A stretch of 40,608 nucleotides of DNA, taken from Planctomycetaceae bacterium. Its GTDB lineage: Bacteria > Planctomycetota > Planctomycetia > Planctomycetales > Planctomycetaceae. Under the pieces are notes generated by a model. That model was not told the origin of the DNA, searched no databases, and was given only the letters and a program-made list of their open reading frames with translations. This document shows, piece after piece, positions 2,898 through 40,092 of the stretch; within the stretch, counting starts at the first letter, position 1, and the number at the start of each line of letters is the position of its first letter. The DNA lies in assembly GCA_020426515.1 (NCBI GenBank), contig JAGQPW010000024.1:1-40608 (forward strand), written 5' to 3'. Made by a program: the position numbers and the translations under genes.

Positions 2898-2912
2898 TCC
2901 GTGCGGGGCGTT

Positions 2913-3563: not shown

Positions 3564-3697
3564 GGTGATGCCTGAGAAGGAGAGAGAGCAATGTGCGGAG
3601 TCGACGATCTCCATCGTAGCGGCCAGACACCGACCAACGAATGCCGATTCCTCGCTCAAACGACATTAATCGAAGGCTTGATGGAACGCTTTCGTGA

Positions 3698-4675: not shown

Positions 4676-5038
4676 AACTCGGAAATAACCACTCTAGAGG
4701 AGATTGTGCGTGTCGGCTTCCAGTCTGACAGGTCGCGACGGCCTGTTCAATGGGGGCATTCACAGGGAAGTTGGTGGGGGCCATGCGGACCGCAGCTTTC
4801 TCATTGCGGGTGGCGTATGGCCAATAACATTGCCGTGAGTTATCGAGAGTGGGCAGACATGAGTCAAATTGTCACGGAGTCTCGAATTTCTTGAAGAAAC
4901 CTGCGATTCGAGTAGTGAAGACAGGCAAACTTTGACGATGAATCTGATTGTGCGGACCCAGAGCCCTGCTGCGCGGAGATTTTTTGAACAAAGGCTCAAG
5001 TCGGACGAATTGATCTCATTGAGATTCAGGACTATCCC
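4676..5038. other. Divergent intergenic region with nested inverted repeat
   Basis: This 363-base stretch separates the AAA+ ATPase and secretin start codons and must hold both promoters. I see no convincing sigma70 -35/-10 pair on either strand. The only clear structure is the nested palindrome at 4881-4912. A Shine-Dalgarno AGGA at 5028-5031 lies 7 bases before the secretin ATG. Short open frames here have no recognisable coding character. Confidence 0.6.
4881..4912. promoter_or_regulatory. Nested inverted repeat, possible operator or RNA hairpin
   Basis: The outer arms CTCGAA (4881-4886) and TTCGAG (4907-4912) are perfectly complementary. Inside them, TTTCTT (4887-4892) and AAGAAA (4894-4899) form a second perfect stem around a single G. 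The element sits about 125 bases before the secretin start and about 205 before the divergent ATPase start. That position fits a shared operator or a 5'-leader hairpin. No known regulator site is recognised. Confidence 0.35.
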
Positions 5039-8911: not shown

Positions 8912-8958
8912 CCTCGATGTGCAGCCGACAAGTTGAGTGCAAACTGGTGGAGTGCGGA

Positions 8959-9891
8959 ATGGCCATGATGGCATGTCGTCGACCGAGTCTGGCAAGGCAG
9001 TCTCAATGGCTGTTGGGACTGCTGTTGCTGAGCGGCATCGTCTCATTCTCGGGCTGCACCAGCCTGGGACTGAATCTGCTGACCCGTAAGAAGCCGCTGT
9101 TGCACGCAGATGCCAAACACCCCGTGATGGATGTGATCTGCTTGTGGGAAGCTGCTGAGGGGCAGAATCTGGACGGCCTGCCATGCCGAGGCTTCGCTGG
9201 ACAGGTGCTGTTCTTTGCACACGGACATTCGGAACCGGTGCTGGTGGATGGAGCCGTGACCGTGTATGTCTTTGACGATCAAGGCGATGCCTCGGAGCAG
9301 TCTCGCCCGATGCATGAGTTTCACTTCGAAGGGCCTGCCTGGAACACCTATGGTCGCGAATCCAGCCTGGGGGCGGCCTATCAGTTGTTCGTGCCATATA
9401 CACGTCCCGGTTCTCATCACGCCGCCTGTGCAATTCGAGTGAAGTACCAGCCTGAAGGCACGGAACGGGCGACCTTCTCCAAGATGGCGAATGTTATTCT
9501 GCCTGGGGAGAAATCCGATCGTGCGGACGCATCGATGACACGTCGGCGTGGTTCCGCCTCAGCGCTTCAGCAGGCGGATGCCGAGATTGCCGCAGGCATG
9601 ACTGCGGCGTCAGGAGTTGTTCAGGCCAGTTTTGAGGCGGCACAACCACTCAGTGAAAAACGGAGCCTGGAGACGTTCAGCAGTGCACTGCCATCAGGTG
9701 CCCCGCGTCCGGACACTTCGCGTCTGGAACGAATCCTCCGGCAGTCTGCACATACCGAACCGGAATCGGAACCACCGGTCGCATCGGCGAAAGAAGAACC
9801 TGCGACAGCATCTGATGTCTTCGGAGGCGAGGTCAGGCAAACAGAAGAGCCGGTCACCGCACCTGTGGAGGCGCGGCGGTACCGGCTCTAA
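8959..9891 (+). CDS. Lipoprotein coupled to the secretin
   Basis: A frame opens at GTG 8908, whose bases overlap the secretin stop (GTGA), but I favour the ATG at 8959, which has GGTGGAG at 8946-8952, six bases upstream. That gives 310 residues. The N-terminus has positively charged residues, a hydrophobic run WLLGLLLLSGIVSFSGC and a lipobox-like FSGC with Cys33, so it is likely lipid-anchored. Residues ~40-180 form a compact, probably beta-rich domain with phrases VTVYVFDDQGD and PGSHHAACAIRVKYQPEG. The C-terminal half is disordered, rich in Ala, Glu, Ser and Pro. I do not recognise a named family. Position directly behind the secretin suggests an assembly or stabilising partner (pilotin-like role); that is inference. 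It converges on the ThuA-like gene with a 23-base gap. Confidence 0.82.
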   Translation: MAMMACRRPSLARQSQWLLGLLLLSGIVSFSGCTSLGLNLLTRKKPLLHADAKHPVMDVICLWEAAEGQNLDGLPCRGFAGQVLFFAHGHSEPVLVDGAVTVYVFDDQGDASEQSRPMHEFHFEGPAWNTYGRESSLGAAYQLFVPYTRPGSHHAACAIRVKYQPEGTERATFSKMANVILPGEKSDRADASMTRRRGSASALQQADAEIAAGMTAASGVVQASFEAAQPLSEKRSLETFSSALPSGAPRPDTSRLERILRQSAHTEPESEPPVASAKEEPATASDVFGGEVRQTEEPVTAPVEARRYRL

Positions 9892-9914
9892 GTTATCCAT
9901 TGGAGGTGGATCGA

Positions 9915-10925
9915 CTACTTCAACGCGTGGGCGGATGGTTTCACACCCTTTGTGAATTTGTTGAAGCCAAATGGCGTGGGATTGTATTCACCGACAATTT
10001 CCACATTGGACTTGGCGGGAATCTGATCTTCCATTCCGAGGGCCCAGTACGCGGCGTTGACGATCATCCGACGCACACCTTCGCTGCTGAGATCCTGCGA
10101 AGCGCCCATGGTGGTCGTGAAGACGCGGGCCGCTTTTCCAGCCTTGCCGGTGAATGTCCTGGTCCAGGCCACGGGCATCATGGGGGAGTTCTTGGCTCCT
10201 TCGACGGGAGCGCTGTCAGCAGTCATGCCGGAGAGAACCTGGCCGAGCACGAGAGGTTGCGAGTCACCCGGCAGTGGCAGACGCACTCCGTACACATCGG
10301 TGGGGCCCCAGATGTCGCCCGCCTTGATGCCGCGGAGGATCGGATTGTTTTCCTGTCCTTCCGCAACAATTCCCAAGGTGCTCTCTTTTCCGTGGTGGCC
10401 GTGGTGACTGATCCAGGTTTCACCGAGCACCTGCCGACCAAAGCCGCCGTCCCAATCCTTGCTGCGCCAACTGTAGTGCCCGTAGCTCGAGTTGCCATCG
10501 AGGTTGAAAGCGTGGGTTGCTGTGCGGAGGCCGATGACGGGGCGGCCGGACTCCACATAGTCCACGACATGCTTCATCTGGTCGTCGGGCAGGTTGCGGA
10601 ACCGGTTGAGGCTGATCAGTAGATCGGCATCATCCAGTTCGTGCAGGCCGGGAATGTTCTTCTGCTCGTTGGGATCGATTTCTCCGGTTTCCGGATTGAT
10701 CGAAAACAGCACGACGCATTCAAAGCCGTGATGGACCGACAGAATTTTTCCCAGTTGAGGGAGACCTTCCTCGGAGCGGTATTCTTCGTCGCCCGACATC
10801 AGCACAATTTTCTTGCCTTTGCCGGGACCATCTCCACCAGGGTAGGTGATCCACAGGGCGTCTTCGGCCTGCAGAGCGGGCAGGCCTGTCAACAAGGCGA
10901 ACAGAGCAAGCGAAACGTAGCGCAC
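9915..10925 (-). CDS. ThuA-like secreted protein
   Basis: A 336-residue protein with a clear signal peptide (MRYVSLALFALLTGLPALQA) and a ThuA-like, glutamine-amidotransferase-type fold: KIVLMSGDEEYRSEEGLPQL at the first strand and nucleotide-binding-like loop, DLLISLNRFRNLPDDQ, a GRPVIGLRTATHAF segment, and an HGHHGKEST stretch. ThuA-fold proteins are linked to sugar (trehalose) metabolism, and exported versions are abundant in planctomycetes with no proven reaction. The start is GTG at 10925, decided by AGGAG (10931-10935) five bases upstream. The gene appears to be a single unit, separated from the BFN gene by 120 bases. Confidence 0.88.
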   Translation of the reverse strand: MRYVSLALFALLTGLPALQAEDALWITYPGGDGPGKGKKIVLMSGDEEYRSEEGLPQLGKILSVHHGFECVVLFSINPETGEIDPNEQKNIPGLHELDDADLLISLNRFRNLPDDQMKHVVDYVESGRPVIGLRTATHAFNLDGNSSYGHYSWRSKDWDGGFGRQVLGETWISHHGHHGKESTLGIVAEGQENNPILRGIKAGDIWGPTDVYGVRLPLPGDSQPLVLGQVLSGMTADSAPVEGAKNSPMMPVAWTRTFTGKAGKAARVFTTTMGASQDLSSEGVRRMIVNAAYWALGMEDQIPAKSNVEIVGEYNPTPFGFNKFTKGVKPSAHALK

Positions 10926-10930
10926 GAGAA

Positions 10931-10935
10931 CTCCT
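10931..10935 (-). promoter_or_regulatory. Shine-Dalgarno site fixing a GTG start
   Basis: AGGAG on the minus strand, five bases before GTG 10925 of the ThuA-like gene. No ATG in a suitable position upstream competes with it. Confidence 0.7.
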
Positions 10936-11045
10936 GGTCAATCAAGGTTGTCAATCAGCAAACTGCCCAGCCAGCGCTGGGGAGAGCACTGATGAGTCTG
11001 TGTTGATGCTTGTGAAGTTTCAAGTCCGACTGCAACACAATGCCA

Positions 11046-11444
11046 TCAAGTCGCGGCTTCCAGCACCTCGTCGGAGACGAAGATCGGGACGGGCGGATCG
11101 AAATGGACGGCCAGAGCAATGGCATCACTCGGACGACTGTCAACTTCGTGGAGTTCTCCATCCTTCTGAATACGGATCACGGCGAAATAGGTGTGGTCCT
11201 TCAGATTGGTGATGACCACATCCTGAACTTCACCGCCGAGTTCAGTGATTACGCTCTTGAGGAGATCATGGGTGAGCGGCCGTGGCGGAGTGATTCCCTG
11301 CACCTGACGGTCGATACTGGTCGCCTCGAAAATTCCGATCAGGATCGGAAGAGAGCGTTCGCCGTCAACTTCGCGGAGGAACACGACCTGCTGGTCGTTG
11401 ATCTCGCTGATGATGATTCTTGCCAATTCCATGCGTACGAGCAT
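11046..11444 (-). CDS. Bifunctional nuclease (BFN/DUF151) domain protein
   Basis: A 132-residue single-domain protein matching the BFN (DUF151) family throughout: ELARIIISEINDQQVVFLRE, LPILIGIFEATSI, the HDLLKSVITELGG helix, and the highly conserved DSRPSDAIALAVHFDPPVFV-like end (here SRPSDAIALAVHFDPPVPIF). Family members in plants have been reported to have nuclease activity; most bacterial ones are uncharacterised. The length is normal for a stand-alone domain; many relatives carry a C-terminal UvrB/UvrC motif, absent here. The ATG has AGGAG (11450-11454) five bases upstream. A promoter with a perfect TATAAT lies just upstream, so it is probably transcribed separately from the RNase Z-like gene. 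Confidence 0.92.
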   Translation of the reverse strand: MLVRMELARIIISEINDQQVVFLREVDGERSLPILIGIFEATSIDRQVQGITPPRPLTHDLLKSVITELGGEVQDVVITNLKDHTYFAVIRIQKDGELHEVDSRPSDAIALAVHFDPPVPIFVSDEVLEAAT

Positions 11445-11481
11445 GGTGACTCCTGTTGGTTGACCCGGTGAGCAATCCCTG

Positions 11482-11511
11482 ATTATAGCCCGGTCGGAAT
11501 TACCACGACAA
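11482..11511 (-). promoter_or_regulatory. Sigma70-type promoter for the BFN gene
   Basis: On the minus strand a perfect -10 hexamer TATAAT lies at 11487-11482 and TTGTCG (4 of 6 to TTGACA) at 11511-11506, with an 18-base spacer. Transcription would begin near 11475, giving a leader of about 30 bases before the ATG at 11444. This is the best promoter match I found in the window. Confidence 0.5.
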
Positions 11512-11610
11512 GCAGGCCACTGCCCAATGAAGTCTTACAGCGGCATTCGTATTTCGCAATCCGCTGGTGGGTTGCCGTGTGTTAATTACATCCGGAAGAG
11601 AGTTGCAAAA

Positions 11611-12453
11611 CTACAGCCACAGTTCGACTCGACCTCGCAGATTCTCCGGTAAAGCTTTGTCGATGGCTTTGCTGATCTGATTGTCGTGATAGCGGGTGCT
11701 GAAGTGCCCCAGTATGATGAGTTCGTTCTGGAACTGATCGGCCCGGGCCAGGATGTCGTCGAGGTGCATGTGCCCAAACTTATGGATCTTCTCTTTGCGG
11801 TGCTCGGGGCGGAAGAAGGTCATCTCGGTAATCAGGATTTTCGCCTGAAAGTTGGCCGGATCGGCATCGAGTCCTGGCGGAGCAGTGTCTCCGGTGTAAC
11901 TGACCAGCGGAATTCGTGTTTCTTCGCTGACTTCGGTTCCGCCCAGCCGTATGTCACGGATCTCCTGTCCTGAAAGTCCCAGGAATTCGGCCTTCAGCTT
12001 TTTGCGGCGTTCCCACACGATATACCCCACGGAAGGAACGGTGTGTTTGGTGGGGTATGCAGTGACCACATGCTCGCGTGAGAGTTCGTATTCTTCACCA
12101 GGTATGACGGGCACGAGATTACACAGCATGCGTCCGCGGTCCAGTTTGTGCCACGACTTCAGCATGCGATCAACATGCTCAACGACCTGAGCGGGCAGGT
12201 AAATGGTGGGCGGTTCCATTTTCATCATCCGTCGCCGGGCGACGAACGACGGCAACGCAGCCATGTGATCCAGATGCGCATGGGTGATGAAAAACGTTGG
12301 CGTCCCCATGAACGACCAAGGACTGGCCCCCATATCGAACCCAAGTTTGAGTTCGGGAATACGCCAGTAGGTCTGAACTGCCGCGCGAGAGTACCCCTCG
12401 ACGGTGAACCCATCGTGGATATGAGATCTCAGTGGCAGATTTTCGAGGTTCAT
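11611..12453 (-). CDS. RNase Z-like metallo-beta-lactamase-fold hydrolase
   Basis: A 280-residue metallo-beta-lactamase-fold protein. The metal-binding motif HAHLDH lies at 58-63, preceded by PTFFITH. Later ligands are the Asp in SYTGDTAP and the His in [20 protein letters not shown] is also typical of this group. The order and spacing resemble RNase Z, which removes the 3' trailer from tRNA precursors, but the protein is shorter than typical bacterial RNase Z (about 300-320), and its N-terminus (a substrate-facing [15 protein letters not shown] segment) differs. It could instead be another metal-dependent phosphodiesterase of the ElaC/AtsA group. There is no clear ribosome site before ATG 12453. 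Upstream lies the inverted-repeat cluster at 12561-12626. Confidence 0.85.
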
Positions 12454-12560
12454 GGATTGCAGAACAATTCAGGGGCAGTGCACATCAGCAACGCGAACGA
12501 CGGGAACCGATGATGGGAAACCTTGGCAGCGGATGATAGGAGATTGCAGCGGGGGAGTCA

Positions 12561-12626
12561 GTGATGGCCTCATCACATGACTGGCCGTGTGGTGGAAACG
12601 GCCAGTGACAACCAGGCCGGTTCCAC
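12561..12626. promoter_or_regulatory. Cluster of overlapping inverted repeats
   Basis: Three inverted repeats are packed together. GTGATG/CATCAC: 12561-12566 with 12571-12576, loop of 4. ACTGGCCGT/ACGGCCAGT: 12580-12588 with 12598-12606, perfect, loop of 9. GTGGAAACGGCC/GGCCGGTTCCAC: 12592-12603 with 12615-12626, 12 bp with one mismatch, loop of 11. The second and third share 12598-12603, so they cannot form together. The element lies 52 bases after the UPF0173 stop and 127 before the RNase Z-like start. It may terminate the upstream transcript or be an attenuator-like switch for the downstream gene. No T-run follows, so an ordinary intrinsic terminator is not demonstrated. Confidence 0.5.
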
Positions 12627-12677
12627 GCGGGGCATGACGAACGTGGAAACGTGTGCCAATATTGGCGGGCGGCGAGT

Positions 12678-13361
12678 TTACTTGACCAGTTCGAAACTCT
12701 GGCCAGGCTCAAGAATGACCGGTTCAGCAGTCGTATTGGCTCGAATTTCATGAGCCCAGGCAGCGGCATCCTGGGCAATGGGAGGCCAGGTGTTGTAGTG
12801 GCACGGCATGACCTGCCGAGGTTTCAGGAATTGCGTGGCCCGGACCGCATCGCGCGGCCCCATGGTGTAATTGTCGCCGATCGGCACGATCGCCAGATCA
12901 ATTCCCTCGTCGCCGTACAACTGCATGTCCGAGAACAGCGCGGTATCTCCGGCGTGGTAAATTGTGCCAGTCGGCAACTTGAGCATCAGCCCGGCCGGAT
13001 TGCCGCCGTACGATCCGTCAGGCAGCATGGATCCGTGAAATGCGATGGTCATTTTCATGCGACCAAACGGAAACTCGAACTCGCCGCCCATCTGCATCCC
13101 ATGGGCCTGAATCTCCTGCTTCGAGAGCCATTCAAAGATCTCGTAGTTGGCGATGACAGTTGCGCCGCATCGTTTGGCAATTTCCACGGTGTCGCCAATG
13201 TGGTCACCGTGACCGTGAGTGATCAGGATGTAATCCGGAGAAAAGGAATCGGGCGTGCGGTCGGTGGATGGATTTCCGTTGAGAAACGGGTCAATCAGCA
13301 GCGTGGTTTCGCCGCTGACGATTTCGAAGCAGGAGTGTCCAATAAAGGTGACTTGAGCCAT
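12678..13361 (-). CDS. UPF0173-family metal-dependent hydrolase
   Basis: About 227 residues from the preferred ATG at 13361 (MAQVTFIGHSCFEI is the standard family beginning). A longer frame beginning with TTG at 13391 has no ribosome site. The metallo-beta-lactamase signature HGHGDH lies at 49-54, followed by YHAGDTALFSDMQLYG and the end motif CHYNTWPPI, all diagnostic of the UPF0173 (YtkL-like) hydrolases. The biological substrate of this family is not established. The gene begins about 50 bases after the prenyl synthase stop on the same strand, so it probably belongs to the isoprenoid transcription unit as its last gene, with the inverted-repeat cluster after it. Confidence 0.9.
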   Translation of the reverse strand: MAQVTFIGHSCFEIVSGETTLLIDPFLNGNPSTDRTPDSFSPDYILITHGHGDHIGDTVEIAKRCGATVIANYEIFEWLSKQEIQAHGMQMGGEFEFPFGRMKMTIAFHGSMLPDGSYGGNPAGLMLKLPTGTIYHAGDTALFSDMQLYGDEGIDLAIVPIGDNYTMGPRDAVRATQFLKPRQVMPCHYNTWPPIAQDAAAWAHEIRANTTAEPVILEPGQSFELVK

Positions 13362-13411
13362 CGGGACTACCGTGGATTTCTTAGCTGACAAATTGAATTC
13401 AGGAGGGAGAC

Positions 13412-15364
13412 CTACCCGGCGACGACAGGCAGCGACAGTGTGAGACCGTCGTTCTGCTGCAGGTCTGGCTCATCGATCTCCGGAGCCAGAACCGTGTCGA
13501 CCAGGAAGTACAGCAACTGTCGAACGGTGTCACACTCCAGGTCGTCCGCAAGTGCTTCAGCGCGGGCACGGGATTTCTCCACGAGCGCTTCGGCTTTTTC
13601 GAAGACTCCCGCATTCATGAAGATTCGCCGGACTTTTTCCAGCCGCATCACATCATCCCCGCGAGATTCGTAGATCTCTCGCAGTTCGCGACGCACCTTA
13701 TCGGAACTGCCCTGCAGGGCGAGCGCCAGCAACACGGTGGGACGCAGCGTCAGGGCATCCTGTCCGGCCACGAGCTTGTTGTCCTGATCGCCCTGCCAGT
13801 CCTTGAGGTCGTTGAGAATCTGAAAGCCCACCCCCAGTTGCCGACAGAACTGCGGCACCAGTTGAGCGTACTCCGCTCCCTTGCCTGCCATTGTGAATCC
13901 GGCATGCAGGGCCGCTTCAAACGCGGGCGACGTCTTCAAGGCGTAAATCTGCAGTGCATCCAGAGGAGTGAAGTCCCAGTCGGGATCGTCATTCCAGGCC
14001 ATTTCGGCCCCTTGTCCTTCGCAAAGACGAATGTGCGCGGTCGACATGCTGTCGAGAATGTCGCACGCAACATCAGCTCCCAGTTCGTCCCGGCTGCTGC
14101 TCACGAGGCGGTATCCCATCCCGATGAGATAATCGCCAATGTTGATGGCCGGTCCCATGCCATGGCTGCGGTGCAGGGTTTCCCGACCGTAGCGGAACAG
14201 GTCATCATCCTGGATGTCGTCGTGTACGAGCGAAGCCTTGTGGAAGGCTTCGATTGCCATCGCCACGCGGCATACGCTGTCGGAGAATTCCAGATTGTTG
14301 GCTCCTGGACCGGCGGAGAGCCATTGGCCGCCACTGGCAGCATCATAAGCCGCCAGAGTAATGAACGGACGAAACCGCTTGCCGCCGTTGGCCAGCCAGT
14401 CGTAGGCAACATCTTCGGTCAGTCCCAGTGGCGAGCGGGCCTTTTCCGGTGTCGTGCTGCGAACGCGAGGGACAAGCCGATCGAAATGCTGATCGAACAA
14501 ATGCCCGGCAGCGCGCATCAGCGGGATGTAGCTGGTCGTTTGTGGCTCGGGCAGCGGCTCGTATTTTTCCAGCACTTCCCACACCCAGGCCTCATCCATC
14601 TTGGTGTTCTTGCAGTCACCCGAGTGCAGGGGAACGGCATACGAAGGGACGCCCGCGATGAGAATCTTGTCGATGGCCTTTTCCAGAACGTTCAGGCAGG
14701 CCACACCCAGAATACCGTCGACGTATCCCTCGACGATGATCCGCAGCACGATTGGAGACCCTTCGGCCACCAGAACTTTGTAGCCCAGCTGCTCGGCCCG
14801 CACCTTATAGTCGGCGATCGAGCAGGCCCCGCATTTTTCGCAGTCGAGCCCGAACTGATCGTAATCTGCCGGGCAGCCTTCGGCGTGCTTCAGACAGTGA
14901 GGCAGCAGCAGCATGCGGCGTTCAAATGGCGTCGCCAGGAACTGCCGCATCCAGAAGTAATTGCCGAGCAGGACCATCGCGAAGCCCAGAAATCCTTCTG
15001 GCTGATTGATGGAGTCCAGAAACGCCCGTCCATGCTGTTCCAGTTCATCCCGTGAGAACGGTTTGGACTTGTCGAGCGAGGCGGCGTATTTTTCCGCAGC
15101 AGCCTTAATCGACTCGCGCAGTTCCAGCGTCTCTGGAACAAGCTTCAGGTGCGAGGTGCTCTTGCGTTTGCGCCGTTTCACGGGCGCGGGATCGTCTTCC
15201 TCGATGGCGACACGCGGGACCTCAACCGAAGTGGCAGGGACCGAAGTCGATTCGGGGGGCGAACCGGCAATGGGAGGATCAGAGAAATCCAACGTAGGCT
15301 CCTTCACGCTGCGCGTTTGGGTGCATTCAGTGGGCGGGGCAGTCGGCAAGTCACGTTGACTCAT
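13412..15364 (-). CDS. DUF116-polyprenyl diphosphate synthase fusion
   Basis: A 650-residue, two-domain protein. Residues 1-75 are a disordered, Pro/Ser-rich leader with a basic patch KRRKRK. Residues ~80-265 match DUF116, a Cys-rich domain of unknown function: C157, C164, C175, C178 and C181 ([11 protein letters not shown], then CEKCGAC), with C223 and C251 further on; metal or Fe-S binding is likely but unproven. Residues ~285-640 are a trans-isoprenyl diphosphate synthase: GGKRFRP (327-333), first Asp-rich motif HDDIQDD (381-387), KTSPAFEAA, and a second motif FQILNDLKD (514-522) in which the usual first Asp is Asn518. The expected reaction is chain elongation of an allylic diphosphate with isopentenyl diphosphate; product length is not readable. 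It lies 200 bases downstream of the cyclase gene on the same strand, suggesting substrate supply. Confidence 0.9.
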
Positions 15365-15564
15365 TCTGATGGTTCCGCGGTCAACCTGCCAGCGAAACGG
15401 CCTGACTCATCTCCGTAAACCCAAAGGTTTCCTTACGCATCAACCCGTCGGAGGGCGAACGGTTCCGCACAATCCGCAAGTTTCATGCAGTTTGACCGGT
15501 CGACGGGGCATTTGTCGAGACGTGGAGGGGTGGCTGGCAAAAAAACAGCATCGGCCGCCTGGAC

Positions 15565-17421
15565 TCAAGTCTGGTCCTGCTCAGCCACCTGTAGAGCATG
15601 ACGCAGTGCGGAGACCGCCCAGACTTGCGGGTACAACTTTTCAAAATACCACAATTTGAAGAAGTAGAACCCGATAGGGGATGGTTCAGTCCACGTTCCG
15701 GAATCGACACGCGCAATGAGCCAGTCGAGCCCTCGTATGACTTCATCGATGCTTTCACGATCACACAGCAGCGCTTCAATTGCCAGCGCCGTTTCTTCCA
15801 CGGTCGACGGCGAACCGGGGACGCCGCCCCATCCCCCATCTGAATTCTGGCTGGAACGCAACCACCGCAGCCCATCCACGGCCGGCAGGGCTTCCAGTCG
15901 GTCGAGATCTCGATACGCGGCGATGACTTTCGCCGTGCCGTAGGTGGGATTGATATCGTCCGGAGCCTGCTGGTTTCCGAACCACAGAGGCAGCCACGAT
16001 CCATCGGAGCGTTGATTCCGGGCCAGGAACTGCATTCCCCGTCGGATGGCGCCAATGACTTCCTGCCATGGCCAGTCCGTGCCGGGCGACTCAAACTGCT
16101 CCCGGGAGTCCTCTGTCAGCTCGATGCTCAGCAGCAGCTGTGCGTCAGGACATGCGGCCACACAGGCCCGTAACACGTGGGCGGTGAGGTCGCAGGAGCT
16201 TCGATCGAATGGAAGATTCCCCCAGCCGCGACAAAATGTCGGCCAGCCTCCATCGCGATTCTGCAGATCGAGCAGCCAGCGCAACCCTCGTTTCTGGGCA
16301 TCGAAGGTTGTTGGTGATTGTTGAGGATCGAGGTTTCGCAGCGCAATGATCGCCCCGGGGGTATCATCGGCATCAGGCACTCCGCCGGGAAGATTGGTCC
16401 AGGCCCAGCCTCCGGGGGGGGCATTCGTGTAGGGGTGGAGTTCCGCGTACTGCTGGTTGAGCAGCCATTGACGAATCGGTTCGGCGGCATCCTCGGGAAG
16501 GTCATCCGTCAGGGCATTGACGCTCAATGTTGTGACCCACGTGGCCAGGTTGGTGTCAATGGGCCAGCTGCCGTCCTCCAGCTTGGAGGCACAGATGAAT
16601 TCAACGCCTCGTTCCACCACAGGGTGATTGATCAGGCCTTTCGCGGCGAGGCTCATCGTCACGAAACTAGTGAGCGGCGTCGCTTCCAGGAATCCTCCGT
16701 GAGGCGGCTGAATACGTTTGAGGATTCTCAGGCTTCGCGGCGTGCAGATGTCCCGCAGCCAGTTCAGGAATGGATTCCAGGATCGCCGAAAGTGATGCCG
16801 TACCTGTCCAATTGCAATCAGGGCCGGTAAGGCGTAGCTGACGACCGGCAACTGAATCGCCGCATAAAAGCTCGCTGGCACGCACGCCAGTTCGAATGGC
16901 AGAGCCGGAACATCTTTCCAGTCCACCAGACCCGCGAGAGCACAGTGCGTGAGAATCGGAATGGAGAACGTCTTGTCTTTGCCGTAGCGGGCCAGAATGG
17001 CGGGGATGCCCCCATGCTTCTGGATGTAGCTGTCGGCTGCCGCGACGTGCTCCGAATACTGCTCGACCGTTCCTGTGGCGTGAAAGACGGCGTGGCACAG
17101 TACGGTCGTGGAAATATTGCTGAAGCTCTTGACCGTGTCGCCCCAGCCACCATCACCATTTTGATGCTGAACCAGCCATCTCAGGCCGCTATCAATATCG
17201 GCTTTGAGTCGAGCGGGATCGGGCAGCTCCGCGGGCCACGTGGGGACGCGGAGTCCGGCCTTCCGCGATTGTTCCAGGGCCATCACAGCGGTTGCTGTTG
17301 AGAGGGCAGAAGTCGAGAGTTGGCCAGTCCAGTAACCGGAGCCGTTTCGTTGTGCCAGCAGGGCCTCGGTCACAACCTTTGCAGCGGTGCGGAGACGCTC
17401 GACGTCGTAGCGGAACTTCAT
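15565..17421 (-). CDS. Squalene-hopene-cyclase-like class II terpene cyclase
   Basis: A 618-residue protein, the normal size for a squalene-hopene cyclase. It has at least five QW-type repeats (QNGDGGW at 87-93, LEDGSW near 281, QNRDGGW near 387, QRSDGSW near 470, QNSDGGW near 525). The catalytic acid motif DxDD is present as D350-A-D352-D353 in VPDADDT, within the expected [11 protein letters not shown] context. [10 protein letters not shown] (411-420) and PTYGTAKVI (492-500) also match known cyclases. An intact DxDD implies proton-initiated cyclisation of a polyprene; hopene, another triterpene or a different substrate are all possible. At the place of the conserved WDT of Alicyclobacillus cyclase this protein reads W295-V-T297. 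Its ATG overlaps the stop of the PIN-TRAM gene (ATGA), so the two are translationally coupled. Confidence 0.9.
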
Positions 17422-31761: not shown

Positions 31762-34700
31762 CTACTCTGGTTGATCAACCGGCGGAACCACCATCGGGGC
31801 ACGGGCTTTGGAAACCTCGCGGAAATACTGTCGAATCAACTTGGCGTAATCGCCATCGGATGTTCGGCGGGCACTTTCCAGGAGTTCGGTCTGCAGCGTC
31901 CCGGGGAGTTGACCCCAGTTTCGGACCTGTCCTTGCACGTTGATATTCGGATCGACAATGTTGGACAGGCCATCAAATCCATTTTCGCTCGGTTCACCAT
32001 CCGCCGGATTTCCCCCCGGTTGTCCCTGCTGCGAGGCCATGCTGTTGGCTTGAGACTGCTGATTGAGTCCCATTTGTTCAGCCGCCTGACGCAATGATTG
32101 TGCGGCCTGCTGCAAGGCTTCGGAAGCATTCTCCGGGGCGGGGGCTGGTTGTCCTTGATTTCCCTGAGCCTGTGCGGCAGGGGGGCTCATGGGAGAGGGA
32201 GTGCCTTGACCTTCTCCCATCGGATTGGCGGCCATGCCTTCCAGAGAACCGAGATTCTGCAACGCCTGAGCCGCATCGGCGAGCTGTTGGGCGGCGCTGG
32301 AAACCTGTTGAGCAGCTTCACCGGGCACGGCATTTGGCTCGGCATTCTGCTGGCGGCCCTGCGCACCCTGTCGAGCCTGCTGTGCGGCCTGTTGCAGTGC
32401 CTGAGCTGCCTGCTGTCCCTGCTGCCCGGCCTGACCATTGTTCCCCTGCTGTATATTCTGAGAAGCCTGAGTCATTTCCCCGGCGGCCTGGGCGGCAGAC
32501 TGCTGTGCCGCATTTGAGGCATTGGCCTGCTCACCGGCGTTGATGGGCTGCTCACCCAACTGGTTCGCGATCTGACCCAGCTGTTGGGAAAGGCGTTGCG
32601 TTTCCTGTCTCAGCTGGTTCTGGCGGGAATTGCGAGCGGCGGCCATTTCCGATGGGCTGAGACTCAGTTGTTGCAACTCCTGAGCCAGTTGCTGTTGAGT
32701 CGTTGCGAGTTGTTGGGCCGCTTCGGCTAATGGAGCGGGAACGGCCTGTTCCCCGCTCATTTGCCCCAGTTGCTGCCCGGCCTGAGCCGCCTGCTGCGCG
32801 GCCTGTTGCGCTGCGGGTGTGTTTGTTGCTGCGGCCTGCTGAGCGGCCTGTCGGGCCTGGTCCGCAAACTGTTGAGCTTGTTGTTGGACGGGCTCGCCTA
32901 CGTTCTCCATGGCCTGCAGAACCTCGGCAAGCTGCTGAGCCTGTTGGGCAACCTGCGCCTGCCGCTCGGCAACGGGAGCCTGAGGAGCATTGGCCGGCTG
33001 CTGTCCGGCTGGAGTCGCGGGTGCTGCTGCGGCAGCCTGGGCTTCCCCGGTCGGGGCGGGATTCCCCATGGGCTCTCCTGGTGCCGAAGGAGTCTGGCCC
33101 ATCGGAGTATTCTGAGCCAGACCTTCGGGGGGCTGTGCGGCCACTTGCGTTGCCGCGGCAATTTCGCGCTGCTGTTGGGCGAGCGCCCGTGCCTGCTGAG
33201 CCAGCGCTGCGCTGGTCGATGGTTGAGCGGTGGGAGTGGTTCCCTCGGTCGGCTGACCAGCAGGTGGCTGTGCTGGCGATGCTTCCGTTCCCTCGGTTGG
33301 GAGATTGGCAGCCATCTGAGCAGCGGCTTCACCGGGATTGCGAAGGACTTCGGCCTGTTGACGGGCTTCCTGGGCGACACGCTCCAACGCCTGTTGAGCC
33401 TGCTGCTGTGCGGCCTGAGCCTGAGGACCCTGTTGTTGTTGAAGTGCTCGCGCGGCTTCACCAGCTTCGGCTTGAGCGGCGGCCTGGGTGAGCGGATCAC
33501 CCGTTGGATCGAGGTTCGCCATCTCGCGAGCCAGTCCAGCTTGCGCCCCTTCCAGTTGATTCAGGGGGCGGTTTTCTGCCATCGCCTTCTGTGTTTCCTG
33601 AGCCAGTTGCCCCTGTCGCTGGGCCAATTGCTCTGCCTGATTCGCGACCCTCTCCAACTGGTCCGCCGTCTGTTGTGCTTGTGGCGAGGCAATCTGTCCT
33701 GCTGCCTGTTGTGCCTGCGTTGCTTCTGCGGCGTTTGGCAGTGAGGCAGACGCTGCTTCAGTCAAAGCCTGAGCAAGATCCTGCATTGCCTGTTGTGCCT
33801 CGGCCACAGCCTGTTCGGCCTGCGGCACGGCATCTTCATTTCCAGCGGCCTGTCGCAATTGCTGAGCAGCCTGCTGAGCCTTTTGTTGCGCAGTCTGCTG
33901 TTGCTGTTGAGCAGCCGGGGCCAGGAGTTGTTCTGCCTGCCGGGCCAGTTGCTCTTGCTGCTTTGCCTGCTCGCGTAACGGGTCGGCCATGTCTTTCGAG
34001 TTCGCCAACGCTTTCTGGGTCTGTTCGGCCAAAGCCTGTTGTTGACGCTGCATTTCAGCCGCCTGTTCAGCGGCACTGGCCTTGCCGCTTAGGGCGTTTT
34101 CCAGATCGGCCACTGCCTGCTGCGCTCGCGCCTGCGATGCGGGGATCTGCTCGGCAGCTCCATTCTTCAGGTCGTCGAGAGCTTCTGCGGCAGCGGCAAG
34201 TGCCTGTTGCCGGGCACGCTGTTCAGGGGCCTGGGGGGCATCAATTCCTGCGAGCCGTTCTGCAGTCCGTTGCTGTCGCTCGGCAAGCTGCTTCAATTGT
34301 TCGGCGTCAGGCTGTTTGACTTTCTCGCCATCGCGAGTCTGCTCACGTGCCTGATTGGCAATGGCAGACTGCTCCTGACGGATTCCTTCGGCCTGTCGCC
34401 GTGCTTCCTGTTGTCGTTCTTCGGGAGTTCCCACAGCGCTGGCGAGATCATTCAGCCGGTTCTTCGTCTCTTCGGCCCGTTGAATCGCCTGTTCCTGATC
34501 ACCGTTTAACAGTGCCTGCATTGCCTGCTGCGCTTGCTTGACCGTCTCACGCTGCTGATTGCGAGCCTTCTCCGGGACATCCAGTTGAGCAGCTGCAAGC
34601 TGCAATGAAGCCTGTTCGCTGGCGAGTTGCCGTGCTTCGGTCGACCGTTCGCCATTCTCGGGCATCTGCAACTGTGCCATTTGCTTTTGAAGTTCTCCCT

Positions 34701-37401
34701 GTCGTTGAGCCAATTCGCGCGCTGCGGCCTGCGCATCAGCGGGAAGTTGTTGATTCTTCTCCAATGCGTCGGCCAGGCGTTCCAGTTCGGCTGCGGCGCG
34801 TTGCTGTTCTTCCGCAGCGGCCTGCAGGTCTCCGGCGGCGAGAGCATCGAGCGCTTTCTGCAGGTCTTGCGTGTCGAGCGGCGCTACGGGCTTTTCGTTC
34901 TGCTGCATGTTGACCTGCCGAGCCAACTGCTGTCCCGCATCGTTCAGTGCGGCCTGCTGCATCTGCTGAGGCTGTGCTTTTGCTGCCATCTGCTGAGCCT
35001 GTTCATGTACCGCATCGGCGAGCAGTTCCTGATCCTGTGCCAGCTGATCCGCACGATTGGCCAGTTGTTCCAACTGCTGCAGCAGTTCATCGCGGGCGGC
35101 GTTCACAAGTTCGGGACGCCGATCGAGCAGGTCTTTCAGATCCTGCATCAGGTTCTGCTGGCTGTCCTGGGCTCGTTCGCGAGCCGCTTCAAACTGCTGC
35201 TGTTGCTGAGCGGTCGGCTGCGGTGCAGGCTGCCCGTTGGGCTGTTGCTGCTGGAATGCCTGTTGTTGCTGTTCGAGTTGCTGGACGTTCTCGGCCAGAC
35301 GTTCGGTTCCGGCGGCCAGGCGATTCAGTTCCATCAGATCTCGCTGGAGTTCGGCCAGTTTGCCGAAGTCCTGCTGCATACGGTCGAGACCTTCCGCCGC
35401 CTGTTTGAACTGTTCAGCCGCCTGCTGAAGTCCCTTTGGCTTTTCGGAAAGTGCTGCCTGCTGAGCCTGCTCCAATCCCTGTTCGGCGGGCTGTAATTGC
35501 TGCTGAGCGATTTGCTCCGCCTGATTCCCCAGCTTTTCGAACAGCGGGTTCGCCTGCAGGACCGCAGCAATCTGTTCCATTTGCTGCCGAACTTTCTGTT
35601 CGGCTTCGAGCAACTTCTGGAGTTCCGCGTCTTTCTTCCATTCCAACTGCTGGGCCTGATCGGCTTGTGCCTCTTTCCGCAGTTCCTCGGCCTGATGCTG
35701 CTGGTCTCGCAGCTGATTTTCCAGGTTCTGCAGCAGTTCCTGAAGTTGCTGCTGCTTGTCGGCCAATGACTTTTCGCCGTAGGGGACCGCGTCTTTCTTG
35801 ATTTGCAGCATACGTTCCGCGGTCCACGATTCGTTGGGTTTGGGGACCGGGCGTTCATCGGCCGCGCGAGCCTTTAGCGAAACGAGCATCCCATCCGTAA
35901 GCTGGAGTGGCGTGAGATCAAACCTGAAGAGCTGCACCACTTCCTTCTGGCCCAGCTGATTCGCCTCAGCCGAGAGGAAGCCTTCCTGCTGCAATCCCGC
36001 TGATGAAACGTAGGAGTAGTGCAATTCAAGGGCTGCGACTCCAAAGTCATCGATGGAGCCAACGGGAATTTCCACGACGTCGTCGGGACGAGCCTCGGCT
36101 TGATCTTCGGCGTCGAGGAACATGACGACCGGGGCTTCATCGGGCTGTACGGTCAGGCGACGAAGCGGCAGCGGCTCGGTTTCGAGTTGATATTCATCGC
36201 GTGCCCGCAGGTAATAGCGTCCGGAATGCCCATCGAGAGCCGCCAGAAGTTCTCCAGTGGCTGAAAGCCCGTCTTCCGATACTTCGAGCGGTGTGACGGC
36301 TTCACCTGGCCCAGCGGAAGTGGCATCACCGGCGGCGTCAAGTTCGGTGCGGCGGTCCAGCCACACCAGTTCCGCAGACTGCAATGGCTTGTTGAATCCC
36401 ACGCCAAACTGCAATCGACTTTGTTCCAGTGTCACCAGTTCGCCCAGCGCTCCATCCAGATGCTGGGCCGGATTGCCGGTGTAAGCTGGCGGCGTGACTT
36501 CAATGTTGAATGCCGTTGCGGCAGGAGGGTCCACGACATCAATGCGATGCGAGCGGGAACGGGCGTTGTCGACAGACGCGTGAAAATTGAAGCCACTGAA
36601 AACATGTGGCAGCACCGTGGTGTAGGACTCGGTTTTTGCATCCCAATCCAATCGACGGCGGTCTTCGTCTCCGGCATCGTTATTCCATACCAGCCATCCG
36701 GTCTCGGGCAATTCTTCTTCGTGGAATTGCCACTTCGGTGTGACACGCACCTCAACATCCGATCCCTTGGCCACAATGCGGTCACCATCGACCACGGTCA
36801 GCACCAGATTGTCCAGCCGTTCGTAATTGCCCCAGGGATTGAAAAAGCGGGAGAGCATCAAGGCATAGGCGCTCGATGCGAACAGCAGGGGAAGAATCAA
36901 CGCCAGGAGAGCCGCACTCCCCATCCAGCACCGCCGCATCGCGAGACGCGAATCCGCTGCATCGCGAAAGTCGATTTTCTCGGCTCGGGTGATTGTTTCC
37001 TCCAGCATCCAGCGCTGCATGATGGGCGAGCCCTGCTCTCCTGAGGTCACGTCGCTTCGCGACAGTTCCACGGCCGTCAACAGGCGTTCCTGCAACTGCG
37101 GATACGACTGTTCGACGAGTGCCGCCAGATCCTCGGTGGAGACCTTTCGCAGCAGCGGGCGAACGATGGTCCAGATGGCGGTGAACGCTGTGACGCCAAC
37201 GCCAGTCCACAACAAACCTGCGCGAATCCCCAGAGGAAGATCCCACAACCAGTCGATGAGCATGGCCGTGGCCAGCAGGACGGTGCAGGTCGTGAGGGTG
37301 ATTCCCACTCCACTTGCGACGGCAAGTCCCCGCAATCGTCCGCGAAGGCTCCGCAAATCCTGCTCAATCTCCGGTGGAAGCGAAAATGACGGTGCGACCA
37401 T
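31762..37401 (-). CDS. Giant Gln/Ala-rich membrane-anchored protein (DUF4175-like)
   Basis: A 1879-residue protein. Hydrophobic helices lie at about 26-48, 61-83 and 159-183. Residues ~190-530 form an extracytoplasmic beta-rich region like that of DUF4175/BatA-neighbour proteins (FNIEVTPPAYTGNPAQ, YYLRARDEYQLETEP, DDFGVAALELHYSYVS). From about 540 to 1790 the chain is an almost uninterrupted, heptad-like helical region dominated by Gln and Ala with Glu, Arg and Leu, best explained as very long coiled coils or a Q/A-rich fibre. The end (WGQLPGTLQTELLESA, DGDYAKLIRQYFREVSKA) is a recognisable conserved C-terminus of this planctomycete group. Function unknown; a cell-envelope spanning or stress-linked role is inference. 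In other planctomycetes such genes sit by MoxR/DUF58 operons; here none is adjacent. No strong ribosome site. Confidence 0.9.
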   Translation of the reverse strand: MVAPSFSLPPEIEQDLRSLRGRLRGLAVASGVGITLTTCTVLLATAMLIDWLWDLPLGIRAGLLWTGVGVTAFTAIWTIVRPLLRKVSTEDLAALVEQSYPQLQERLLTAVELSRSDVTSGEQGSPIMQRWMLEETITRAEKIDFRDAADSRLAMRRCWMGSAALLALILPLLFASSAYALMLSRFFNPWGNYERLDNLVLTVVDGDRIVAKGSDVEVRVTPKWQFHEEELPETGWLVWNNDAGDEDRRRLDWDAKTESYTTVLPHVFSGFNFHASVDNARSRSHRIDVVDPPAATAFNIEVTPPAYTGNPAQHLDGALGELVTLEQSRLQFGVGFNKPLQSAELVWLDRRTELDAAGDATSAGPGEAVTPLEVSEDGLSATGELLAALDGHSGRYYLRARDEYQLETEPLPLRRLTVQPDEAPVVMFLDAEDQAEARPDDVVEIPVGSIDDFGVAALELHYSYVSSAGLQQEGFLSAEANQLGQKEVVQLFRFDLTPLQLTDGMLVSLKARAADERPVPKPNESWTAERMLQIKKDAVPYGEKSLADKQQQLQELLQNLENQLRDQQHQAEELRKEAQADQAQQLEWKKDAELQKLLEAEQKVRQQMEQIAAVLQANPLFEKLGNQAEQIAQQQLQPAEQGLEQAQQAALSEKPKGLQQAAEQFKQAAEGLDRMQQDFGKLAELQRDLMELNRLAAGTERLAENVQQLEQQQQAFQQQQPNGQPAPQPTAQQQQQFEAARERAQDSQQNLMQDLKDLLDRRPELVNAARDELLQQLEQLANRADQLAQDQELLADAVHEQAQQMAAKAQPQQMQQAALNDAGQQLARQVNMQQNEKPVAPLDTQDLQKALDALAAGDLQAAAEEQQRAAAELERLADALEKNQQLPADAQAAARELAQRQGELQKQMAQLQMPENGERSTEARQLASEQASLQLAAAQLDVPEKARNQQRETVKQAQQAMQALLNGDQEQAIQRAEETKNRLNDLASAVGTPEERQQEARRQAEGIRQEQSAIANQAREQTRDGEKVKQPDAEQLKQLAERQQRTAERLAGIDAPQAPEQRARQQALAAAAEALDDLKNGAAEQIPASQARAQQAVADLENALSGKASAAEQAAEMQRQQQALAEQTQKALANSKDMADPLREQAKQQEQLARQAEQLLAPAAQQQQQTAQQKAQQAAQQLRQAAGNEDAVPQAEQAVAEAQQAMQDLAQALTEAASASLPNAAEATQAQQAAGQIASPQAQQTADQLERVANQAEQLAQRQGQLAQETQKAMAENRPLNQLEGAQAGLAREMANLDPTGDPLTQAAAQAEAGEAARALQQQQGPQAQAAQQQAQQALERVAQEARQQAEVLRNPGEAAAQMAANLPTEGTEASPAQPPAGQPTEGTTPTAQPSTSAALAQQARALAQQQREIAAATQVAAQPPEGLAQNTPMGQTPSAPGEPMGNPAPTGEAQAAAAAPATPAGQQPANAPQAPVAERQAQVAQQAQQLAEVLQAMENVGEPVQQQAQQFADQARQAAQQAAATNTPAAQQAAQQAAQAGQQLGQMSGEQAVPAPLAEAAQQLATTQQQLAQELQQLSLSPSEMAAARNSRQNQLRQETQRLSQQLGQIANQLGEQPINAGEQANASNAAQQSAAQAAGEMTQASQNIQQGNNGQAGQQGQQAAQALQQAAQQARQGAQGRQQNAEPNAVPGEAAQQVSSAAQQLADAAQALQNLGSLEGMAANPMGEGQGTPSPMSPPAAQAQGNQGQPAPAPENASEALQQAAQSLRQAAEQMGLNQQSQANSMASQQGQPGGNPADGEPSENGFDGLSNIVDPNINVQGQVRNWGQLPGTLQTELLESARRTSDGDYAKLIRQYFREVSKARAPMVVPPVDQPE
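31990..35790 (-). repeat. Gln/Ala-rich low-complexity coding region
   Basis: About 3.8 kb encode imperfect, irregular repeats built from AQQ, QQAQQ, AEQAQQ and LAQ units. At DNA level the plus strand shows many near copies of a 9-12 base word (such as gcctgctgtgc and ctgttgagcc). There is no fixed period, so replication slippage and length variation between strains are likely. Confidence 0.8.
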
Positions 37402-37716: not shown

Positions 37717-40092
37717 TTGAGCAGACGGAACGGAAAGAACGGACAGGGACAGTCTCGGCAGGAACCTCAGGAGGACCTGCAGTTCGTCAATATCAGCGAC
37801 GAAACACGGCGGCGTTACCTCAATTACGCCATGTCGGTGATCATGTCGCGCGCTCTGCCGGACGTGCGCGATGGTCTCAAACCCGTGCAGCGTCGCATCA
37901 TGTACGTGATGTCGAACGAGCTTCGGCTGTCTCCCGACGCCAAGTTCGTTAAGTGTGCGCGCATCGTGGGCGACACCATCGGTAAGTTTCATCCGCACGG
38001 TGACATGGCCGTGTACGATGCGCTGGTGCGACTCGCTCAGGACTTCACCTATCGGGAAACGCTGGTACATGGGCAGGGGAACTTCGGCAACATCATGGGG
38101 CTGCCCGCCGCCGCCTCGCGCTATACCGAAGCCAAACTGACCGCCATTGCCGAACGGCTGATGTCGGAACTGCGGTACGATACCGTCGACATGCGGCCCA
38201 CCTACGACGGCACTCGCAACGAGCCGGTCGTGCTCCCCGCCCAGTTCCCGAACCTGCTCGTGAACGGGTCACAGGGCATTGCCGTGGGAATGGCGACGAA
38301 CATGCCGCCTCACAACCTGGACGAAGTCATTCGTGGCTGCATCCAGATGATTCAGAATCCCGAGGCCTCGACAGCGCAGGTGATGCGGTCCATCAAGGGG
38401 CCAGACTTCCCTCTGGGAGGGCGCATCGTTACGGACCGTGAAGAGCTCAAGCAGATCTACGAAGAGGGACGCGGCAGCATCAAAGTTCGCGGAGAGTGGA
38501 AGTTTGACGAGGAAAACGGCAAACCTGTCCGCAGCCGGATCGTCATTCACTCGATTCCCTATGGCGTTGAAACCGGTCCACTACTGAATGCACTCGGAGA
38601 AGTCCGCGACTCCCGCAAGTTGCCGCAACTGCTCGATCTGGCCGACGAGTCCGACGAAAACAGCGGTCTGCGGATTGTGCTGCACATCAAACAGGGGGCC
38701 GACGCCGAGACCGTCATGGCGTACCTGTACAAGCACACGCGGTTGGAAGATAACTTCGCCTACAACGCCACCTGTCTCGTTCCTGACGAACACGGTGTGC
38801 TCGTTCCTCGACGTTGCGGACTGGCGGAAATCCTCAAGCACTTCCTGGACTTCCGCCTGATCACGGTGCGGCGGCGATTTGAATACCTGCTGGCTCAGCT
38901 CGAAAAACGCATTCACATTCTGCAAGGCTTTGCCATCATTTTTGATGGACTCGACAAGGCGCTCAAAATCATCCGGGCCAGCAGTGGCAAGCAGGATGCC
39001 GCTGTCAAACTGATGAAGGCCTTCCCGCTGGATGAAGTCCAGACCGACGCGATTCTCGACCTGGCGCTGTACCGCATCTCCTCGCTCGAAATCGATCGCA
39101 TTCTGGAAGAGCTGCGAGAAAAGGAAGCCGAAGCGTCTCGCATTCGCAAGATTTTGAAGTCCAAGCAAAAACTGTGGGCCGAAGTGCAGGGCGAACTGGA
39201 AGGAATTCAAAAGGCCTTCAAGAGTGCCCGCCGCACGGAACTGGGGTCGAGTGAAGAGATCACCGAATTCGACCCGCAGGCTTACATCGTACGGGAGAAC
39301 ACAAATGTTGTGGCGACCAGCGAAGGCTGGATTCGACGGCTCGGCAAGATTTCTTCGGTCGACAAGCTCCGGGTTCGAGAAGGCGAGGAAATCTCGATCG
39401 TCCTCCCCTGCACGACACTCGATAACGTGATCTTCTTTTGCAGTGACGGAACCGCCTATACGCTCCCCGTCGATCAGATCCCGCCATCAACCGGATATGG
39501 TGAGCCGCTTTCCAAGCATGTGAAGCTCAGCGATGGGGCAACGATTGTCGGAGCCATTACCACTGATGTGCGGTTCACGCCCGAGGATACAGAGGTTGAA
39601 GATGCTCCTCCTGCTCCGTATCTGATGATCGCCACTTCGGATGGACAGGTGATGCGGCTGAGCCTCAGCCTGTTCCGCCTGCCATCAACCAAGTCGGGAC
39701 GGCGCTACTGCCGCACGGCGAAAGGGGCCAAGGTGGTGCATGTCGAGTTGATGAATGACGAAGACACAATGTTCCTCATCTCCCGACAGGCGCGACTCAT
39801 TCACTTTGGTGTAACGGATGTTCCTGTATTGAACGGTCCGGGCAAGGGGGTTCGCGGCCTGAAACTGGTCGAACCGGACGATGTCGTGCTCGGAGCCCGC
39901 CGTCTGACCCGTCCCAGTGATGTGCTCAAGGTGGTCAACGAAAATGACAAGGAACTGAGCTTCGGACAGATGAAGTACACAGTCACGTCGCGTGGCGGCA
40001 AGGGAGTCAAGACCAGCCAGCGTACGAGTATTGAACGGATCATTCGTCCGGAGATTGAAGTCGTCGACTTCAGCGGCGTGGGTGACGAGTAA
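37717..40092 (+). CDS. Type IIA topoisomerase subunit A (GyrA/ParC)
   Basis: A 791-residue DNA gyrase/topoisomerase IV A subunit. The N-terminus has the standard LNYAMSVIMSRALPDVRDGL. The active-site pair is R135-Y136 in AAASRYTEAKL, where Tyr136 forms the phosphotyrosyl link to DNA. LLVNGSQGIAVGMATNMPPH is conserved. The C-terminal beta-pinwheel has blades like FCSDGTAYTLPVDQIP and FGVTDVPVLNGPGKG. The spacing, the GYGEPLSKHVKLSDGAT phrase and the end resemble ParC. The canonical GyrA box QRRGGKG is only partly kept, as TSRGGKG at 757-763 in the last blade, so wrapping ability is uncertain. Position 97, equivalent to E. coli GyrA Ser83, is Met, while D101 (Asp87) is kept. The start is TTG with AAGGAG eight bases upstream. 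No gyrB/parE partner is nearby; a second A subunit elsewhere is expected. Confidence 0.93.
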   Translation: MSRRNGKNGQGQSRQEPQEDLQFVNISDETRRRYLNYAMSVIMSRALPDVRDGLKPVQRRIMYVMSNELRLSPDAKFVKCARIVGDTIGKFHPHGDMAVYDALVRLAQDFTYRETLVHGQGNFGNIMGLPAAASRYTEAKLTAIAERLMSELRYDTVDMRPTYDGTRNEPVVLPAQFPNLLVNGSQGIAVGMATNMPPHNLDEVIRGCIQMIQNPEASTAQVMRSIKGPDFPLGGRIVTDREELKQIYEEGRGSIKVRGEWKFDEENGKPVRSRIVIHSIPYGVETGPLLNALGEVRDSRKLPQLLDLADESDENSGLRIVLHIKQGADAETVMAYLYKHTRLEDNFAYNATCLVPDEHGVLVPRRCGLAEILKHFLDFRLITVRRRFEYLLAQLEKRIHILQGFAIIFDGLDKALKIIRASSGKQDAAVKLMKAFPLDEVQTDAILDLALYRISSLEIDRILEELREKEAEASRIRKILKSKQKLWAEVQGELEGIQKAFKSARRTELGSSEEITEFDPQAYIVRENTNVVATSEGWIRRLGKISSVDKLRVREGEEISIVLPCTTLDNVIFFCSDGTAYTLPVDQIPPSTGYGEPLSKHVKLSDGATIVGAITTDVRFTPEDTEVEDAPPAPYLMIATSDGQVMRLSLSLFRLPSTKSGRRYCRTAKGAKVVHVELMNDEDTMFLISRQARLIHFGVTDVPVLNGPGKGVRGLKLVEPDDVVLGARRLTRPSDVLKVVNENDKELSFGQMKYTVTSRGGKGVKTSQRTSIERIIRPEIEVVDFSGVGDE

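Follow-up and report, generated by a model that had tools for sequence, protein, structure and literature searches.

The stretch of 40,608 nucleotides analysed here, referred to as the window, encodes a giant protein of 1879 residues, which we read as an inner-membrane-anchored scaffold of variable length that holds a conserved C-terminal unit (CT) and an alpha/alpha-toroid protein (TOR) in an envelope module of planctomycetes, a reading to which we assign a probability of about one half. It builds on computed features: the open frame, the domain order of the protein, the periodicity of its helical region, its conserved ends and variable middle, the gene order of the module in homologs, the adjacency of CT and TOR, and the occurrence of CT in both split and fused form.

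A giant protein with conserved ends and a middle of variable length

The giant gene (P0001) is an open frame starting with an ATG at position 37401 (Table 1). The original prediction had placed the 1879-residue frame exactly, and the present analysis adds its strand. The source assembly, planctomycete judging from related genomes, amounts to 5.8 Mb in 530 contigs, of which the window is contig C166. Upstream, the gene is flanked by the divergent gyrA gene (37717-40092) and downstream by a PLD-like gene on the opposite strand, and no MoxR, DUF58 or BatA/VWA gene is found among these neighbours. A search with the N-terminal 535 residues returned matches in all 59 genomes searched (the own genome and 58 relatives). 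In a tree of 38 giant N-termini the proteins of loci L040 and L041, from the same family, are nearest to the window giant, with 100/100 support for the three, and many of the deeper forks are weakly supported.

Table 1. Features of the giant gene and its product, in protein residues and window positions
Feature	Residues	Window position	Strand	Basis
Giant gene P0001		31762..37401	minus	open frame; N-terminal matches in 59/59 genomes including its own
Three hydrophobic, putatively membrane-spanning segments in N-terminal helices	10-187	36841..37374	minus	hydropathy, AlphaFold2
Three predicted Ig-like beta-sandwich domains	199-534	35800..36807	minus	AlphaFold2; overlap the DUF4175 match at 293-468
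First helical block, conserved, six helices of 26-68 residues	541-800	35002..35781	minus	AlphaFold2, occupancy, heptad periodicity
Q/A-rich helical expansion that varies between orthologs; numerous helices of some 22 residues joined by short loops	801-1500	32902..35001	minus	occupancy, AlphaFold2
Second conserved Q/A helical block, then Gly/Pro/Gln-rich, probably disordered linker	1501-1828	31918..32901	minus	occupancy 0.83-0.99, pLDDT
CT tail, predicted helix-loop-helix (low confidence)	1829-1864	31810..31917	minus	invariant residues, model

Both ends of the protein are conserved and the length of its middle is variable. In an alignment with 18 orthologs, occupancy is 0.90-1.00 at residues 541-800, falls to 0.28-0.75 at 801-1500 and returns to 0.83-0.99 at 1501-1828. 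Identity to the window giant, calculated per 50 residues, is 0.19-0.43 over residues 1-800 and 0.24-0.36 from residue 1501 onwards, and 0.07-0.16 at 1001-1450, a stretch with an occupancy of 0.28-0.54. We assembled a set of 37 complete giants, leaving aside four that are cut by contig ends, with a few of the 37 being closely related to each other; the 31 of them that carry CT range from 923 to 2638 residues with a median of 1605.

At the N-terminus, hydropathy peaks at residues 25-43, 62-80 and 157-175 lie in helices of the AlphaFold2 model (10-53, 57-84 and 152-169), in agreement with the three anchoring helices that had been proposed from the sequence. Across the complete giants, the first 300 residues contain three hydrophobic segments in 25 proteins, four in nine and two in three, and past residue 300 such a segment occurs in none of the 37. 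A model of residues 1-800, computed together with 11 orthologs (pLDDT 83.9; pTM 0.48, which is low), places beta-sandwich domains at residues 199-303, 313-419 and 425-534, followed by six helices spanning residues 543-799. The first domain, which alone was searched individually (residues 198-291), superimposes on Ig folds with Z of about 10 and 2.0-2.5 Å over 85-90 residues, and a fold search with the entire 1-800 model yielded multi-domain Ig-like or macroglobulin-like matches that are non-specific.

Residues 293-468 match positions 179-327 of the 825-position DUF4175 profile (PF13779) and hence do not cover most of it. The N-terminal 550 residues, scanned alone, score 27.6 bits, the cut-off being 27.3, and the full-length protein scores 19.6, below that cut-off; 12 of the 19 giant N-termini scanned match at E<=0.01. 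The DUF4175 label would thus be a partial one, and it stays tentative because a six-frame search of the own genome for this family returned no match. Both the helical expansion and CT fall outside the matched segment. As a separate observation, the giant of locus L054 (genome G022, gene 5866-12471) seems, judged by eye, to contain an inserted thioredoxin-like domain in its Ig-like region, and one of the 19 N-termini, perhaps that of L054, matches Pfam Thioredoxin with E 2.5e-13.

The region that follows had been described as dominated by glutamine and alanine, and this holds: residues 561-1809 contain 23% of each, compared to 4.5% glutamine and 9.8% alanine in 11 other window proteins. Hydrophobic residues recur in it with a 3.5-residue period (z 9.9 for residues 541-1300 and 8.1 for 1300-1800, compared to 0.1 for 180-540). 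The same period is present in all 33 complete giants tested, a set that leaves out L063, L086, L114, L119 and the four contig-end-cut giants, with z between 3.0 and 14.8. Glutamine content varies from 4 to 23% among the 33 and the heptad period is found whatever its value; the window giant has both the highest z and the most glutamine.

The low glycine and proline content noted in the original prediction was confirmed as such, with Pro+Gly making up 5-9% per 100 residues over 501-1300 versus 13.6% in the other window proteins, but the description of almost no breaks was borne out in part only. The sole long stretch free of both residues is 543-618 (76 residues). From residue 619 prolines reappear; 36 of them, one per about 24 residues, and 31 glycines are present in 541-1400, the longest proline-free run there after 618 being 65 residues. 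For residues 690-1879 AlphaFold2 predicts 36 helices with a median length of 23.5 and a maximum of 46 residues, accounting for 851 of 1190 residues (pLDDT 70.6, with 814 of 1190 residues at pLDDT >=70; pTM 0.46, which is low). Four stretches of more than 30 residues have pLDDT below 50 (1359-1394, 1424-1475, 1719-1757 and 1779-1853) and are, going by the model, probably disordered. A long uninterrupted helix was not found in either model, the maximum predicted length being 68 residues for helices of 541-800 and 46 for those of 690-1879, from shallow alignments: both models rest on 12 sequences each and are weak evidence on overall shape. The models thus suggest that the region, envisaged earlier as a single coiled rod of about 1250 residues, is more aptly pictured as a succession of short helices.

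Strings of short-helix bundles are known from the alpha-catenin, vinculin and talin arrays, and the best, albeit weak, Foldseek matches of the 690-1879 model in the PDB are alpha-catenin (E 8.3e-4) and a vinculin homolog (E 2.3e-3). With TM-scores of 0.09-0.15 and rmsd of 40-44 Å in the top matches, the likeness is one of arrangement, and we claim no homology. Tandem duplication of the helical region found no support at the level of sequence, as forward self-alignment scores (mean 76.5, 90th percentile 99) were hardly better than those of the reversed control (74.8 and 92). Tandem Repeats Finder reported two short arrays only in the DNA of the gene, and the repeat families seen there at loose identity resemble recurring Q/A/L codons.

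The C-terminal unit, its toroid neighbour and the gene module

The conserved C-terminal motif noticed earlier in the window giant, now read as W-G-x-L-P-G..., lies at most 60 residues from the end in 31 of the 37 complete giants, the window giant included, although the CT profile was partly built from the very giants in which this conservation was counted. All 17 tails that were aligned share the invariant residues W, G, L, G, E, Y, I, Y and F. The six complete giants without CT are those of L063, L064, L065, L066, L076 and L119. All 13 named records with the giant's C-terminal tail bear planctomycete names, six of them 'Planctomycetaceae bacterium', and in a sample of the phylum CT matches occur in 33 of 149 genomes, some of them ending proteins of 211-251 residues. 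A broader profile matches 58 of 59 genomes, and of the 150 CT matches listed 84 lie in frames below 500 residues and 57 in frames of at least 880.

By sequence comparison, CT appears as a unit of its own, encoded by a separate gene in many relatives. In the split form the giant has no tail and a distinct CT gene comes after it (L063, 365 residues; L064, 334; L119, 236; L120, 284), with TOR coming next in three of these four loci; the L120 giant was identified from its position, length and N-terminus and not from the profile. Because CT occurs separately elsewhere, upstream of TOR, the window protein probably arose by joining a giant to CT. The C-terminus of the giant probably lies outside the inner membrane, because the small separate CT proteins start with signal-peptide-like stretches (judged by eye), provided that these proteins are exported. 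The own genome contains two further CT matches, G000:C432:16823-16954 and G000:C210:22658-22789, in frames of 209 and 367 residues, which are perhaps separate CT proteins.

Among the 150 CT and 150 TOR matches listed, 39 pairs, from 35 of 59 genomes, have CT upstream of a same-strand TOR and no more than 600 bases away, while three control orientations gave 0, 0 and 0 pairs; this count excludes weak CT matches in other frames at L033 and L112. The CT frame is a giant of at least 880 residues in 19 pairs, a small protein below 500 residues in 18 and of intermediate length in two. Each member pairs once, so that 111 of the 150 CT and 111 of the 150 TOR matches listed remain unpaired: most CT copies do not adjoin a TOR. 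Again among the matches listed, 18 genomes have a fused pair, 14 of them belonging to the window's family, and 18 have a split pair, one of them belonging to that family. The occurrence of CT both as a separate gene and as part of a giant is the classic fusion argument that such parts are functionally linked.

The TOR family is large, with matches in every one of the 59 genomes. Eight of ten frames downstream of giants match Pfam SQHop_cyclase_C, seven of them over the cut-off; the remaining two are the frame at L042, a locus in which later analysis detected no TOR, and an incorrect frame at L054, whose TOR lies at 12468-13550. Most of 16 TOR N-termini show a signal-peptide-like stretch by eye. 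The macroglobulin/complement matches of the Ig-like part prompted a search for a thioester (CGEQ-like) motif in TOR, which is absent from 16 of 16 sequences. In the window, a polyprenyl synthetase and DUF116 gene (13412-17421) is adjacent to a squalene-hopene-cyclase-like gene of the same orientation.

In homologs, the giant is clearly linked to MoxR/BatA modules, with the gene order MoxR, DUF58, BatA, VWA-like, giant, TOR; such a module is absent beside the window gene. At L075 all six genes run in one direction, and L124, from another family, has the full order as well, with L126 following it from BatA on. L120 has MoxR-DUF58-BatA-VWA, a giant-like frame, CT and TOR. At L053/L101, BatA-VWA-giant-TOR stands beside a divergent MoxR-DUF58 operon, at L059/L102 VWA-giant-TOR diverges from MoxR-DUF58-BatA, and partial modules comprise DUF58-BatA-VWA at L063 and L064 and BatA-VWA at L062. 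At L101 (G010, 279-16805) the BatA-VWA-giant-TOR set is back to back with MoxR-DUF58-BatA-VWA and a second giant on the other strand, and one MoxR/DUF58 pair may serve both giant modules. Of the 27 loci L040-L066, ten have TOR immediately after the giant and two have it after an intervening CT gene; in the other 15 no TOR lies just downstream, and in three of these the giant runs off the contig. The gap between giant and TOR in the ten direct cases ranges from -133 to 254 bases, and giant stop and TOR start overlap by four bases in L053, L054, L055, L075 and L114. 'VWA-like' is a working name: the partner of L075 matches PF00092 at 25.4 bits, and Pfam returned no match for those of L053 and the own genome.

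To quantify the association across the 59 genomes, the own genome included, we compared those with a close giant (E<=1e-35) to those without, using a cut-off of E<=1e-80 for the partners. TOR and the VWA-like partner are each present in 25 of 26 genomes with a close giant, versus six (TOR) and seven (VWA-like) of 33 without one; in the window's family (37 genomes) both partners occur in 23 of 24 with a close giant, compared to 3/13 (TOR) and 4/13 (VWA-like) without. The bands were chosen after the data had been seen, with giants at 1e-30 giving 25/28 and at 1e-40 24/25 for each partner, and the corresponding Fisher tests ignore the relatedness of the genomes. The window giant has no TOR or MoxR partner beside it, nor do the 15-19 kb around the giants of its relatives L040 and L041; its own genome encodes TOR on contig C493 (59% identical to that of L048) and the VWA-like partner on C288, both unlinked to the giant.

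Three further loci are worth recording. At L073 (G000:C490, 5565-9107) the gene for a 1180-residue protein, missed by the N-terminal search, follows a MoxR gene in the same orientation, and the C-terminus of the protein resembles that of tail-less giants by eye. The window also encodes a MoxR-like AAA ATPase that is diverged and barely exceeds the AAA_3 cut-off (3698-4675), about 27 kb from the giant, and a secretin of 1290 residues with five Secretin_N stretches (5039-8911).

Alternative explanations for the helical region

A continuous coiled-coil rod, which if fully helical would measure up to about 190 nm, could span a wide periplasm and set the spacing of the membranes. The strong 3.5-residue period over 541-1800, the low Pro+Gly in 501-1300 and an anchored N-terminus separated by a variable length from a conserved C-terminus are what one would expect of such a tether, but prolines interrupt residues 541-1400 every 24 residues or so on average, the predicted helices are short and joined by loops (in models from 12 sequences, weak on overall shape), and giants differ nearly threefold in length, so that we regard a rod as unlikely. 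Even less probable is the opposite extreme, a mostly disordered, low-complexity Q/A filler, possibly aggregation-prone, of which the ends alone would be functional. The poorly aligning middle of very variable length, the spread of glutamine content between homologs and the four low-pLDDT stretches speak for it; the heptad period that persists in every complete giant tested irrespective of glutamine, the preponderance of helical and reasonably confident residues, and the conservation of the helical blocks at 541-800 and 1501-1700 speak against it. No positive evidence was obtained for the earlier idea of an aggregation-prone scaffold. Of the outcomes that had been named in advance as counting against the original prediction, an unconserved length was found, together with a conserved C-terminus and a chain predicted to be mostly helical in place of mostly disordered; a membrane-anchored, largely helical protein with a conserved C-terminus is thus supported.

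Two further explanations draw on known systems. AdvA of Acinetobacter baumannii, a protein critical for division according to the available excerpts of PMC7481262, has predicted transmembrane helices in common with the giant and a DUF4175 annotation, which in the giant is tentative, a likeness by description. A cell-division factor of this kind, with the helical region as division-site scaffold, would agree with the match of residues 293-468 just over the cut-off in the isolated N-terminus and with its recurrence in 12 of 19 N-termini. The match is confined to a small part of the profile and lost below the cut-off at full length, however, and the gene context differs from that of AdvA, with MoxR/BatA genes around the homologs and no division gene noted when the recurring neighbours were surveyed in general, so that we rate this explanation as improbable as the disordered filler. 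A force transducer, in which inner-membrane energy moves the outer end, would combine an inner-membrane anchor, a long helical arm, a small C-terminal unit and BatA/VWA partners, as the giant and its module appear to do, and PMC12204202 proposes that vWA transducers exist in Planctomycetes as well as in other phyla. TolA and TonB, by comparison, have a single N-terminal transmembrane helix, a SHLS motif and a TolQR-type motor, whereas the giant has three hydrophobic segments, and we consider a transducer of this type very improbable.

Proposed role in the planctomycete envelope

For the anchored scaffold that we favour, the arrangement would be as follows. The three N-terminal segments would hold the giant in the inner membrane, and outside it would follow the three Ig-like domains, an array of short alpha-helices, the total length of which evolution would have changed freely, and the CT tail. 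CT would bind the exported-looking TOR, and the giant would tether the CT/TOR unit to the membrane. BatA/VWA-type proteins would assemble or remodel this unit, energised by the cytoplasmic MoxR ATPase. More tentatively, and with considerably more doubt than belief on our part, the whole set of MoxR, DUF58, BatA, second VWA-like protein, giant, CT and toroid could constitute an envelope machine of Planctomycetota, in which the membrane-anchored helical-bundle array, its length free to evolve, positions the exported toroid via CT, whether CT is exported separately or fused to the giant, the toroid and CT forming the working end and MoxR/VWA the assembly motor.

Several homologs of the giant lie in or beside operons of the MoxR-DUF58-BatA (Bat, cmd) envelope type. 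The available excerpts of PMC5700661 name no giant, CT or toroid for the MoxR-DUF58-BatA clusters of Borrelia, Bacteroides, Leptospira and Rhizobium; as retold there, envelope and morphology depend on a related operon in Rhizobium, and in other systems MoxR/VWA pairs reportedly remodel their targets (PMC9976466 and PMC13036017), none of these accounts being about the giant. In our literature searches, which covered few subscription papers, the single paper naming DUF4175 was the one on AdvA of Acinetobacter, neither giant, CT and toroid nor MoxR, squalene and planctomycete were found together, and the accessible portion of an essential-gene paper on Verrucomicrobium contained none of the searched terms. 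The searches agree with the earlier statement that the function of the protein is undescribed.

Planctomycete envelopes are unusual. In Planctopirus limnophila, 151 of 748 essential genes are of unknown function, going by the available part of PMC10632474. The occurrence of CT in split and fused form provides a specific and cheap prediction, namely binding of CT to TOR on the outer side of the inner membrane. If true, this would give the MoxR/BatA system, which is widespread but little understood, definite exported partners.
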